From: Polycyclovorans algicola TG408
Lineage (GTDB): Bacteria; Pseudomonadota; Gammaproteobacteria; Nevskiales; Nevskiaceae
Length of the DNA stretch: 64,000 bases
Reading direction: 5' to 3'
Assembly: GCF_000711245.1 (NCBI RefSeq)
Contig: NZ_JOMH01000001.1
Span: forward strand, 1,668,830 to 1,732,829
A program made the position numbers and the translations under genes. Positions 55,254 to 59,246 of this stretch are shown piece after piece. Under the pieces are notes generated by a model. The model was given only the letters and a program-made list of their open reading frames with translations. It did no database searches and was not told the origin of the DNA. How positions within the stretch are numbered: the first letter of the stretch is position 1; each line of letters opens with the position of its first letter.

Positions 55254-55556
55254 ATGCCGAGCTACAACGAGCTTATTAATCAGATTGAAGCACTGAAGCG
55301 GCAAGCTGAAGATGTTCGTCGTCAAGAGCTGAAGTCGGTCATCGACGAAATCAAGGTGTCGATGGAGAAGTACGGCATTACCCTGTCGGATCTGCAATCG
55401 GCGATGGGTCGCGGTGGCAAGAAGAAAACCACGGTTGCGCCGAAGTACCGCAACCCGGCGGGTGGTCAGACGTGGACCGGTCGCGGTCGCGCGCCGCGCT
55501 GGCTCGCCGATGCCGAGGCCAAAGGTCAATCGCGTGACGCCTTCCTGATTCGCTAA
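55254..55556 (+). CDS. H-NS-family nucleoid protein
   Basis: A 100-residue DNA-binding protein. The N-terminal coiled coil for oligomerisation (NELINQIEALKRQAEDVRRQELKSVIDEIK) precedes the C-terminal H-NS domain YRNPAGGQTWTGRGRAPRWL, which carries a GRGR hook that inserts into the AT-rich minor groove. It resembles the short H-NS types of Burkholderia and Xanthomonas (BpH3/XvH-NS). A GAGGAA ribosome site precedes ATG; a strong terminator follows. Confidence 0.9.
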   Translation: MPSYNELINQIEALKRQAEDVRRQELKSVIDEIKVSMEKYGITLSDLQSAMGRGGKKKTTVAPKYRNPAGGQTWTGRGRAPRWLADAEAKGQSRDAFLIR

Positions 55557-55626: not shown

Positions 55627-56754
55627 ATGGCCACCTATCTCGACCACAACGCGACAACCCCGATGGCGCCCGAGGTGCTGGAGGCGATGCTGCCCTATCT
55701 GCGCGGGCCCTACGCCAACGCCTCGTCGCTGCACCGTCTTGGTCGGGCGTCACGCGATGCGATCGAGGCCGCGCGTGCCGAGGTGGCCGAGCTTTTGGGC
55801 GCGCAACCGTCACAGGTGATCTGGACCTCCGGCGGCACCGAGGCCAACAACCTGGCCATCAAGGGCGTGATGCACGATGGCGGTCGATTGCTCTATGCGG
55901 CCACCGAGCACCCGGCGGTGATGGAGTGCGCCGAATCGCTGAGTGATGCGCGAACCCAGGTCGAAGCCATCGGCGTTGATGAGGGGGGGCTGATCGATCT
56001 TGACCGCCTGCGGGCGCAGCTTGCGCAATCGCCGGTGACCCTGGTCTCGGTGATGGCGGCCAACAACGAAACCGGCGTCATTCAGGACGTGGCGGGCCTC
56101 GCACGCGCCGTGCATGCCGACGCCGAGGCCCTTTTCCATGTCGATGCCGTGCAGGCGGCGGGCAAAATGGCGGTTGACGTGCAGCGCATGGGCGCCGACT
56201 TGCTGACGGTCTCCAGTCACAAGCTTTACGGCCCCAAAGGGGTTGGTGCGTTGCTGCGCACCGCCCCGGTGGACTTGTGGCCTTTGCATCACGGCGGGGC
56301 CCAGGAAGGTGGTTTGCGCGGTGGCACCGAGAACGTCGCGGCCATCGTCGGCTTCGGCGCGGCGGCGCGGTTGGCCCAGACGCGCCTGGATGCGCGGACG
56401 GTCCATCTGCAGCGGCTGCGTGAGCGCTTCGAGGCCGGTCTGGCGGCAATACCCGGCGTCACGCACTTCGCCGCGCAAAGCCTGCGCTTGCCCAACACCG
56501 TGCAGATGGCCTTGCAGGGCTGGGCCGGCGAGACCTTGCTGATGGCGCTGGACCGGCAGGGCTTCTGTGTCTCCAGCGGCTCGGCCTGCGCCATTGGGCA
56601 CGGTGCGCCCAGCCATGTGCTGGTGGCCATGGGGGTGCCCGATGCGCTGGCCATCGGCGCCATCCGCATCAGTTTTGGCGAGGCCAACACCGACGATGAC
56701 GTGGACCGCCTGCTCGCCGCGCTAACCGGGCTGGCCCGGCAGGGCGCGCGCTGA
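55627..56754 (+). CDS. iscS: Cysteine desulfurase (IscS/NifS family)
   Basis: A 375-residue PLP enzyme that takes sulfur from cysteine as a persulfide for Fe-S assembly. The N terminus YLDHNATTPMAPEVLEAM, the PLP lysine Lys199 (SSHKLYGPKG) and the active-site Cys321 in VSSGSACAIG are clear. It is group I-like but shorter than E. coli IscS (404 residues). The ATG is close to the preceding terminator with a weak AATAGGGA ribosome site. Its stop overlaps the next desulfurase gene. Confidence 0.9.
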   Translation: MATYLDHNATTPMAPEVLEAMLPYLRGPYANASSLHRLGRASRDAIEAARAEVAELLGAQPSQVIWTSGGTEANNLAIKGVMHDGGRLLYAATEHPAVMECAESLSDARTQVEAIGVDEGGLIDLDRLRAQLAQSPVTLVSVMAANNETGVIQDVAGLARAVHADAEALFHVDAVQAAGKMAVDVQRMGADLLTVSSHKLYGPKGVGALLRTAPVDLWPLHHGGAQEGGLRGGTENVAAIVGFGAAARLAQTRLDARTVHLQRLRERFEAGLAAIPGVTHFAAQSLRLPNTVQMALQGWAGETLLMALDRQGFCVSSGSACAIGHGAPSHVLVAMGVPDALAIGAIRISFGEANTDDDVDRLLAALTGLARQGAR

Positions 56755-58301
56755 TGCCCCCCGCCTGGATTGCGCTGGACCACGCTGCCACGACGCCGTT
56801 GGCGCCCGGCGTTTTCAGCGCCATGCGGCCGTGGCTCGAGGACGCTGTGGGCAATCCGGCATCCGATCATCGCGCCGGTCGTGCGGCGCGGGCCGCGGTG
56901 GAGTCGGCGCGCGAGGCGGTGGCTGAGCTGGTCGGCACCCCGGCCGACAGCCTGATCTGGACCAGCGGCGCCACCGAGTCGATCAACCTCGCGATCAAGG
57001 GTGTGCTCGCCTTCCATGGCGATACGCAAGCGCACGTGGTCAGCTCGCGAATCGAACATCGCGCCACGCTCGACACCCTGCGCTGGGTCGCGACACAGGG
57101 CCACAAAGTGACGTTGCTGAGCCCCGACCGATACGGCCAGATCAGCGTCGACGCGGTAATGGCGGCGCTGACGCCGGCGACGCGGCTGGTCAGTCTGATG
57201 TGGGTCAACAACGAACTGGGTACCTGTACCGACGTGCCGACCCTGGCCGCCGCCCTGCGCGCGCGCGGCGTGCTGCTGCACATCGATGCCGCCCAGGCGG
57301 CGGGCTGGCTGCCGATCAACTTGGCTGAAACGCCCATCGACCTGCTGTCGTTGTCGGCGCACAAGCTCGGGGGGCCGAAAGGCATTGGCGCATTGGTGGT
57401 CGGGCGGCGCCCGCGGGTGCGGCTCAGCCCCTTGCTGCACGGCGGCGGTCAGGAGCAGGGCATGCGCTCGGGAACCCTGGCCACGCATCAGATTGTCGGC
57501 TTCGGTGCGGCGGCGATCCACAGACTGCCGCAGCGCCAGGCGCTGGCGGCCCGCACCGTCAGCTTGCGCGAGCAGTTGGCCGCACGGTTGATGGCCGACG
57601 TGCCCAAATTGCAGCGCAACAGCCCGATCAACGGCAGTCCGCACATTCTCAATGTCAGCATTCCCGGAGTGGACGGCGAGAGTCTGCGGGCGAGCGTGCC
57701 GGATGTCCTGCTGTCCAGCGGTTCGGCGTGCTCGTCGGCGACGCGCGAGCCGTCGTTCGTGCTCCGTGCACTGGGGCACGACGACGCACTGGCCGATGCC
57801 TCGCTGCGGCTGTCGCTGGGAGAAGGCAGCACCGAGGCCGATGTGGAGGCCGGCGCCGACCTGATCGCGGCGGCGGCGTGGCGGCTGCGCGGCTTCGCCT
57901 CGGGCCAGAATCCCGCGGCCACGCCGGAACTCGACAACCTGTTTGCTTACATCCCGGCAGTCTGGGCGCGCTTTTGCCGTCCGGATGCGGTGGGTGAACT
58001 GTCCGGGGACGACGTGCGCACCTTGGTGGCCCGCTCGCGCAGCGACGCGGCCTGGCTGTCGGTCAGCGTCCGGGTGATCGACGGCCGCGTGGTCGAGGCC
58101 CGCTATCGGGGTCTGGGGTGTCCGGTCACCCTGGCGGCCGGGCAGTGGTGGGTGGAACAAATTCGTGGCTGTGACGTCTCAGCCTTGCATCGAGACTGGC
58201 TGTCGGCGGTACGGTCGGCGCTTGAAATCGCCCCCGAGAAGTCCCACTGTGCAGTGATGATCGACGATCTGGCGCAGGCCCTGATGGCCACGCCAACGTG
58301 A
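56754..58301 (+). CDS. Cysteine desulfurase fused to an IscU-like scaffold domain
   Basis: A 515-residue fusion. The first ~390 residues are a second cysteine desulfurase (ALDHAATTPLAPGVFSAM, PLP Lys204 in SAHKLGGPKG, persulfide Cys326 in SSGSACSSATREPS). The last ~115 are IscU/NifU-like: VSVRVIDGRVVEARYRGLGC through SHCAVMIDDLAQAL. Cys456 and Cys499 are 43 residues apart, as Cys63 and Cys106 are in E. coli IscU, with His498 before the last Cys. The position of IscU Cys37 holds Ser430, and the Asp39 position is Ala432. Translation is coupled to iscS (one-base overlap). The domain could be a modified scaffold or a regulatory acceptor. Confidence 0.85.
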   Translation: MPPAWIALDHAATTPLAPGVFSAMRPWLEDAVGNPASDHRAGRAARAAVESAREAVAELVGTPADSLIWTSGATESINLAIKGVLAFHGDTQAHVVSSRIEHRATLDTLRWVATQGHKVTLLSPDRYGQISVDAVMAALTPATRLVSLMWVNNELGTCTDVPTLAAALRARGVLLHIDAAQAAGWLPINLAETPIDLLSLSAHKLGGPKGIGALVVGRRPRVRLSPLLHGGGQEQGMRSGTLATHQIVGFGAAAIHRLPQRQALAARTVSLREQLAARLMADVPKLQRNSPINGSPHILNVSIPGVDGESLRASVPDVLLSSGSACSSATREPSFVLRALGHDDALADASLRLSLGEGSTEADVEAGADLIAAAAWRLRGFASGQNPAATPELDNLFAYIPAVWARFCRPDAVGELSGDDVRTLVARSRSDAAWLSVSVRVIDGRVVEARYRGLGCPVTLAAGQWWVEQIRGCDVSALHRDWLSAVRSALEIAPEKSHCAVMIDDLAQALMATPT

Positions 58302-58814: not shown

Positions 58815-59246
58815 GTGGCTGTTGAACGTACGCTGTCGATTATCAAGCCCGACGCAGTGGCAAAGCATCACATTGGCGAGATCATCGCGCGTTTTGAAAA
58901 AGCCGGCCTGAAGCCGGTTGCCAGTCGCATGATGCACCTCACCGACCGCGAAGCTGGCGGTTTCTACGCCGTGCACGCCGAACGACCCTTCTTCAAGGAT
59001 CTCGTCAGCTTCATGACCAGTGGTCCAGTGCTTGTGTCGGTGCTTGAAGGTGAAAACGCCGTGGCCGCCCACCGCGACCTGATGGGGGCCACTGACCCGA
59101 AGAAGGCTGAAGCCGGCACCATTCGCGCCGACTTCGCCGAAAGCATTGATGAGAACGCCGTGCACGGTTCCGACAGCCTCGAGAATGCGGCGGGCGAGAT
59201 CGCCTACTTCTTCCGGGCCATCGAACTTAGCCCGCGGACCCGCTAA
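58815..59246 (+). CDS. ndk: Nucleoside diphosphate kinase
   Basis: A 143-residue enzyme balancing nucleoside triphosphates. Start GTG with AAGGAG upstream; [12 protein letters not shown] opens the fold, and phospho-His117 lies in NAVHGSDS. Length is normal. A possible -10 element TATACT is at 58736-58741 in the 149-base gap before the gene, with no convincing -35. Confidence 0.96.

Follow-up and report, generated by a model that had tools for sequence, protein, structure and literature searches.

A single gene of Polycyclovorans algicola TG408 (Nevskiaceae) joins a cysteine desulfurase, here called IscS2, to a domain that resembles the iron–sulfur scaffold protein IscU and that lacks the first cluster-ligand cysteine of IscU. 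The gene lies in a stretch of 64,000 nucleotides (contig NZ_JOMH01000001.1 of assembly GCF_000711245.1, positions 1,668,830 to 1,732,829), referred to below as the window. We lean towards the reading that IscU stayed behind as a cluster-incompetent, obligate partner of IscS2 after the sulfur mobilization (SUF) system had taken over cluster assembly, and that the pair would donate sulfur to non-cluster uses.

The presence of desulfurase and scaffold in one chain, which formed the core of the original prediction, was confirmed. The gene is a single open reading frame without internal stops (Table 1), and Pfam places Aminotran_5 at residues 7–366 (220.7 bits) and NifU_N (PF01592) at residues 399–509 (35.8 bits against a cut-off of 22). 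In the alignment to E. coli IscS, His102, Asp178, Gln181, Lys204 and Cys326 of the desulfurase half correspond to His104, Asp180, Gln183, Lys206 and Cys328, indicating that the set of catalytic residues is intact. By its scores against the NCBIfam IscS equivalogs, which stay below both cut-offs (381.5 of 643.2 bits for TIGR02006, 384.3 of 548 for NF010611), this half is IscS-like and not a typical IscS. The catalytic loop (residues 321–329) is poorly defined in the full-length AlphaFold model. A sequencing error that joined two genes is very unlikely and was rejected as an explanation, since the genome is assembled in a single 3.65-Mb contig, a second genome of the genus (G002) carries the same fusion with 78% identity, and fusions occur in other genera as well.

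Only two of the three cluster-ligand cysteines of IscU (Cys37, Cys63 and Cys106 in E. coli) are kept in the IscU-like domain, namely Cys456 and Cys499, which together with His498 are found at the positions given for them originally. In family alignments the Cys37 column holds Asp431, and Ser430, which had been taken for the first ligand position, aligns with Ala36, one residue before Cys37; the absence of the cysteine therefore stands, but the assignment of Ser430 does not. The conserved aspartate (Asp39) is replaced by alanine, as had been proposed, and the residue is Ala433. The LPPVK motif, with which IscU binds HscA, reads IAPEK in the window protein (IscU positions 99–103). With 25.9 bits, the IscU half lies far below the cut-off of the NCBIfam iscU equivalog TIGR01999 (192.4 bits).

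AlphaFold modelling of residues 385–515 with 32 sequences gave a predicted local distance difference test score (pLDDT) of 93.2 and a predicted template modelling score (pTM) of 0.86, and this part of the chain (about residues 390–515) is predicted to adopt the IscU fold, as the original prediction had supposed. VIA-align ranked ISCU1 in the NFS1 complex first (5wlw, Z 19.1), followed by 8rmc (18.9) and 3lvl (18.1), with the best SufU at 14.9 and CsdE at 9.0; Foldseek also groups the model with IscU. A profile search of the PDB, with a profile that included two Castellaniella rows, returned E. coli IscU as the best match (2kqk, E 5.6e-34) and SufU with an E-value of 2e-8. Because both profile and fold scores lie nearer to IscU than to SufU, the modelled domain most likely descends from an IscU of the iron–sulfur cluster (ISC) type; a SufU origin is disfavoured by the same scores and by the position of the locus. 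The fusion gives no match to SufE (PF02657), whose one match in the genome lies at 972378–972731, and residues 399–509 are the sole NifU_N match in the one-contig genome. The NifU_N score above the curated cut-off, the predicted fold and the recurrence of the domain in relatives together place the feature beyond chance.

A scan of genome contigs returned 39 loci, with Solimonas, Nevskia, Hydrocarboniphaga, Stagnimonas, Stenotrophobium and Sinimarinibacterium (all Nevskiaceae) among the genera, three loci from Castellaniella or Comamonas, and some from metagenome-assembled genomes (MAGs) filed under other or wider labels. Genome-wide results refer to 61 genomes, i.e., that of P. algicola and those of 60 relatives. 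Of these, 58 have an IscU-like partner: 56 are in a residue table, and two were read apart (G054, and G026, in which the IscU-like gene and IscS2 are on different contigs). Also outside the table are G014 and G022, in which the contig ends in or near IscS2, G040, and a second NifU_N gene of G037. Cys37 is absent from all 56 rows as well as from G026 and G054, i.e., from 58 of 58 domains. The catalytic His, Asp, Gln, Lys and Cys residues are retained in all 48 rows of IscS1, the stand-alone desulfurase of these loci, and in all 58 rows of IscS2.

The remaining IscU residues follow the families of the domain. Of the 34 rows of family f1, 33 have Cys63, 33 have Cys106 and 31 have His105, whereas in the two sister families f3 and f6 (17 rows) Cys63 and Cys106 survive only in G052, and Tyr3 is missing throughout. 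The combination of Tyr3, Cys63 and Cys106 is complete in 32 f1 rows, and none of the three is left in 16 of the 17 f3 and f6 rows. Every f1 row also has Tyr3, Phe at the position of Tyr11, Lys or Arg at that of Lys103, and Pro following Cys63, and position 101 of the LPPVK motif is Glu or Asp in 30 of the 34. Loss of Asp39 is not universal, as the alignment puts Asp in this column in three f3 rows. A different cysteine, at E. coli position 74, is conserved in f6 (12 of 13), f3 (4 of 4) and f4 (4 of 4; L103, L106, L112 and others), a position that is mostly Ala in f1; domains of f3, f4 and f6 that lack the ligand cysteines are thus not cysteine-free.

The ratio of nonsynonymous to synonymous substitution rates (dN/dS) of the IscU-like domain was between 0.09 and 0.33 in 13 of 14 close pairs, seven of them from f3 or f6, as calculated by the simple Nei-Gojobori method from pairs that share genomes and in several cases have dS above 1. 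The remaining pair, G043/G049, has a ratio of 0.68, which rests on a dS of 0.01. In most pairs the ratio is above those of IscA, Ndk and RlmN. By these ratios the domain looks constrained even where the ligand cysteines are gone. A 3-kb contig filed as Verrucomicrobia (L158) carries a Nevskia-like iscS2 with an IscU-like gene and is possibly misbinned.

In most loci read, the IscU-like domain is linked to IscS2 by gene overlap or by fusion. The homologue search that bears on this part of the original prediction showed that 17 of 56 junctions are fusions, including that of the window. Among the 39 split junctions, 28 have a possible start codon that shares 1 or 4 nt with the stop codon of iscS2, and the other 11 have other spacings. 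Two genomes of genus g5, G006 (L071) and G017 (L082), have about 1.4 kb between the two genes, apparently with a gene in between. Fused and split states are mixed inside genera g1, g3 and g12, and the IscS2 tree requires at least seven changes between them within Nevskiales, both of which speak against a single fusion origin; this is a quick tree with three long-branch joins flagged, and the direction of the changes can be read either way. According to the available text of PMC2854127, the docking site for IscU on E. coli IscS is the C-terminal helix (Arg379–Lys391), and the IscU positions involved are Tyr3, Tyr11, Gly38, Val40, Lys42, residues 59–64 and Lys103. In 27 Nevskiaceae IscS2 rows (12 fused besides the window, 15 split), this helix is shortened or replaced by a linker, and the IscS of Castellaniella still has it. 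A covalent tether may hence substitute for the shortened IscU-docking tail.

The genes around the fusion are those of a reduced ISC operon. As described originally, a stand-alone desulfurase precedes the fusion, an IscA-type gene follows it, and iscR, hscBA and fdx are not part of the operon. E. coli IscR, HscB, Fdx and IscX gave no match in any frame of the window; for Fdx and IscR the search covered the locus only. The only match of E. coli HscA spans 30 residues (E 4.5e-4) of a frame that overlaps secF, and G002 has a short hscA match of 47% in a frame near secF; both were taken as chance. The E. coli order is trmJ-iscR-iscS-iscU-iscA-hscB-hscA-fdx-iscX, and a comparison with E. coli proteins placed trmJ upstream at 12 of 16 loci from relatives and iscR at two (G037 and G043). 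Judged from gene content, we read the locus as the remnant of an ISC operon from which hscBA, fdx and mostly iscR were removed and to which a second iscS was added.

Elsewhere in the P. algicola genome, SufB/SufD matches at 3434224 and 3436745 adjoin a SufS-like desulfurase match at 3437509, one of four desulfurase matches in all; SufE lies apart from this SUF core and from the fusion. The whole-genome view that the original prediction pointed to thus yields SUF genes and no second NifU_N gene. A SUF core is present in 60 of the 61 genomes, SufE in 57, and MnmA over the cut-off in 60, and we consider it very likely that clusters are built by SUF. CyaY (frataxin) and TusE (DsrC) gave no match in any of the 61 genomes, with positive E. 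coli controls; E. coli was also among the controls with a match in the other searches. HscA was over the cut-off in none of the 61, in a search in which 12 of 14 control genomes gave a match and one was over the cut-off; the weaker matches found in all 61 (up to 645.7 bits against 708.55) are read as DnaK and its kin. The ISC chaperone and frataxin therefore appear to be gone from these genomes. Since TusE is absent, tRNA 2-thiolation would run without it. Five f6 genomes (G047, G054, G056, G059 and G060) have only two desulfurase-family matches in all, one of which is IscS2 and the second probably SufS, and in these IscS2 with its IscU-like partner is likely the sulfur donor for tRNA.

Three genomes differ in their additional genes. 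In G035 (L032), contig C22 carries a NifU_N match of 178.4 bits and extra desulfurase matches besides the degenerate IscU-like gene, possibly a nitrogen fixation (NIF) system. G037 and G040 have no SufE match and a NifU_N gene beside SUF, and may use SufU. No isc locus of the window type was found in G040.

A parallel case is found in Burkholderiales. Castellaniella caeni has the order uvrB-wzb-iscR-iscS-iscU-iscA, with no hscBA or fdx seen in the stretch of the locus, and its IscU reads GSPAVGQ where GAPACGD is expected. A Comamonas MAG (L168) carries a separate IscS-IscU fusion with Ser and Ala at the positions of Cys37 and Asp39. SUF is present in the Comamonas MAG as well as in both Castellaniella genomes, and each of the three has a second NifU_N gene, read as SufU-like from its place beside SUF. 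A search of C. caeni and 60 relatives gave a match in 53 of the 61 genomes; the analysis covers the 30 loci most similar to a query without Cys37, and the other 23 matching genomes lie outside it. Twelve of these 30 loci lack Cys37, and none of the twelve has hscB or hscA within about 1.5 kb, while the 18 loci with Cys37 and Asp39 have hscA in 18 and hscB in 17 cases. In longer stretches, hscB, hscA and fdx were present at none of the twelve Cys37-less loci versus all eight of the Cys37-bearing loci fetched. Ten of the twelve belong to one clade, and G094 retains Asp39.

In 20 of 20 stretches, uvrB and wzb adjoin the locus in both Cys37 states, so that Cys37 was most likely lost in place. A UvrB tree of 19 rows (G093 was dropped for a short hit) requires at least two changes and does not resolve G094, G100 and the Castellaniella clade, in which Cys37 may have been lost independently. 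In the IscS tree, which requires only two changes, all Cys37-less rows except Comamonas are grouped, Nevskiales included. We read the inclusion of Nevskiales as long-branch attraction, with transfer as the alternative, because the groups occupy different positions (secDF/ndk versus uvrB/lysS). Counting Nevskiales, we think that Cys37 was lost separately at least twice and probably three or more times; the trees do not settle the number.

The model that we slightly favour on these grounds is as follows. SUF would build the clusters, and the ISC operon is reduced to iscS1, iscS2, the IscU-like gene and iscA. The IscU-like domain would be an obligate subunit of IscS2, bound next to the mobile loop of Cys326, where it would lend stability to the enzyme and control the access of acceptors; in f1, Cys499 may in addition bear a persulfide. 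Sulfur would pass to non-cluster uses, most likely to MnmA-dependent tRNA 2-thiolation without a TusE relay, and the fusion would act as a covalent tether in place of the shortened docking tail. As both Cys37 and Asp39 are lost, no HscA is over the cut-off, CyaY has no match and fdx is missing at the locus, a scaffold function is not to be expected of the domain; persulfide may pass to Cys499 slowly and without metal. Several points weigh against this model. The link to tRNA thiolation is drawn from the presence and absence of genes, and IscS1, where present, could supply this modification. The conservation of Cys63 and Cys106 in f1 goes beyond a purely structural need, and the known docking contacts are partly lost in f6, where Glu or Gln mostly occupies position 103 and Tyr3 has been lost.

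Beyond these loci, we more tentatively propose that IscU has a second function for which the cluster cysteines are not needed, namely as an obligate IscS subunit for sulfur donation to tRNA or other acceptors, and that this function alone was kept after SUF had taken over and hscBA-fdx had been lost, with the pair becoming fused repeatedly. Cys37 and usually Asp39 would be lost first, and Cys63 and Cys106 may follow.

Of the other explanations, a built-in relay survives best. SufE or SufU is known to accept persulfide from SufS, and in the same manner the persulfide of Cys326 would move to Cys499, aided by Cys456 and His498, and be handed on by the domain; without Cys37 and Asp39 the domain would no longer capture iron and would be a sulfur carrier only. 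Such a relay, which the original prediction had also considered, is possible in f1, given the near-invariance of Tyr3, Cys63, His105 and Cys106 and the joint retention or loss of Tyr3, Cys63 and Cys106 across the families, and the absence of TusE from the 61 genomes fits it. In human ISCU2, the accessible text of PMC11021402 names Cys138 (equivalent to Cys106) as the persulfide acceptor and Cys69 (equivalent to Cys37) as dispensable for transfer. However, both cysteines are missing from the domains of f3 and from most of those of f6, which are apparently constrained, and even within f1 G011 lacks Cys63 and G018 lacks Cys106. Moreover, the fast, metal-dependent persulfidation of the human protein requires Cys95 (Cys63), Cys138 and Asp71 (Asp39), the last of which is lost here, though not Cys69 or His137 (PMC11021402, in part), and Cys37 of E. 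coli is named as the likeliest first sulfur acceptor in the portions of PMC2854127 and PMC9769115 available. We therefore consider a relay unlikely as the general explanation.

A reduced scaffold, with the cluster on Cys456, Cys499 and Cys326 of IscS2 or with two domains that bridge a [2Fe-2S] cluster and contribute two cysteines each, is improbable. In its favour, an NFS1 cysteine takes the place of Cys69 in zinc binding by human NFS1-ISCU (PMC11021402, in part), Tyr3, which drives dimerisation of ISCU2 according to the available text of PMC8617193, is invariant in f1, and mutation of Asp39 stabilises IscU clusters (PMC13423590, in part). The same text of PMC8617193 states that all three cysteines are essential for de novo cluster formation, and free ISCU2 strictly needs Cys69 for iron binding (PMC11021402, in part). 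With Cys37 and Asp39 missing, no HscA over the cut-off and no CyaY match in the 61 genomes, fdx not found in the window and SUF present, a scaffold that borrows a cysteine, as proposed originally, thus finds little support.

About as improbable is the notion of a decaying relic, in which IscU became useless after SUF, drifts towards loss and was fused by accident. Stepwise ligand loss across the order and around Castellaniella would suit it, as would the dN/dS ratios, mostly above those of neighbouring genes. Against it stand the retention of the domain in all but three of the 61 genomes (two of the three are cut by contig ends), ratios of about 0.1–0.3 even without the ligand cysteines, invariant motifs, the overlap of start and stop codons and the repeated changes between fused and split states. 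Least probable is a regulator of the neighbouring IscS1, another original suggestion and unlikely as a main role: iscS1 is directly upstream in most Nevskiales loci read, but at seven f6 loci (G044, G047, G054, G055, G056, G059 and G060) iscS2 and the IscU-like gene occur without an adjoining iscS1, and all of these genomes except G044 and G055 show only two desulfurase matches in all.

Table 1. Features of the iscS1–iscS2 locus, in window coordinates.
Feature	Position	Strand	Support
IscS1, stand-alone cysteine desulfurase, 375 residues	55627..56754	+	catalytic residues kept
IscS2 desulfurase and IscU-like fusion gene, 515 residues	56754..58301	+	full-length AlphaFold model, pLDDT 87.7, pTM 0.88
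IscS2 desulfurase domain, residues 1–383	56754..57902	+	alignment to E. coli IscS
Linker, about residues 384–398, at the place of the IscU-docking C-terminal helix of E. coli IscS	57903..57947	+	
IscU-like domain, residues 399–515	57948..58298	+	Pfam NifU_N, AlphaFold, Foldseek, VIA-align
Residues 431–433 (Asp-Ala-Ala), positions of E. coli IscU Cys37-Gly38-Asp39	58044..58052	+	family alignments
Cys456, equivalent of IscU Cys63	58119..58121	+	
His498-Cys499, equivalents of IscU His105-Cys106	58245..58250	+	
IscA-type carrier, 116 residues	58315..58665	+	NCBIfam TIGR00049, 106.1 bits (cut-off 58.8)
Presumed ndk	58815..59246	+	list of open reading frames; order recurs in relatives

The IscS1 gene overlaps the fusion gene by 1 nt, and the IscA-type carrier stays below the cut-off of TIGR02011 (127.1 against 150.6 bits). 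Where contigs reach, the order across Nevskiales is secD-secF-...-iscS1-iscS2-iscU-like-iscA-ndk-rlmN-pilW-rodZ-ispG, in which the downstream genes from ndk to ispG and the upstream yajC-secD-secF are presumed identities given by similarity. Between secF and iscS1, at window positions 55254–55556, where trmJ is found in 12 of the 16 relatives checked, lies a 100-residue frame that we take to be H-NS-like; related frames occupy the same place in G001 and G002.

Compared with known systems, the window protein shares with E. coli IscU and the IscS-IscU complex (3LVL) the fold, an iscS before and an iscA after, Cys63, His105, Cys106, Tyr3 and a basic residue at position 103. In contrast to E. coli IscU, it lacks Cys37 and Asp39, has IAPEK for LPPVK and is joined to a desulfurase; unlike in E. 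coli ISC, hscBA and fdx are not at the locus and CyaY has no match. Human NFS1-ISCU likewise shares the fold and provides the top VIA-align row, but the equivalents of Asp71 and Cys69 are missing from the window protein and frataxin has no match in the 61 genomes. SufU of B. subtilis and M. tuberculosis, a sulfur acceptor for its desulfurase, is related in fold but more distant, and the window genome has SufE. The persulfide acceptors SufE and CsdE have a distantly similar fold (Z 9.0 at best), and the genome's own SufE sits elsewhere. The truncated ISC of M. tuberculosis (PMC10848736, in part) is alike in that an IscS is kept in a SUF organism after the rest of ISC was lost; M. tuberculosis keeps iscS only, according to that text, whereas in the window a degenerate IscU is retained with iscS2, and iscA is also present.

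That ISC and SUF exclude one another, above all in Gammaproteobacteria, has already been published (PMC10631705, in part). Neither an IscS-IscU fusion nor a family-wide IscU without Cys37 was found in the open-licence literature searched; PMC8617193 deals with normal ISCU2, and PMC8593673, PMC2682760 and PMC11559095 do not bear on the fusion. What is new here is an ISC remnant whose IscU probably works as a partner of IscS, outside the definition of IscU as a scaffold. Dozens of genomes keep a Cys37-less IscU, some without any ligand cysteine, with signs of purifying selection and with a link to IscS by gene overlap or fusion. IscU is described in the accessible text of PMC8617193 as a scaffold with three essential cysteines; the present loci make it testable whether IscU serves IscS in any way besides carrying clusters. 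They also form a natural series of stages in the loss of ISC from genomes with SUF, and a single-chain IscS-IscU would be useful for structural studies of the mobile cysteine loop. If the proposed role is true, a close partner of the desulfurase would have taken the place of the Tus relay or of free IscU in Nevskiales and in some Burkholderiales.

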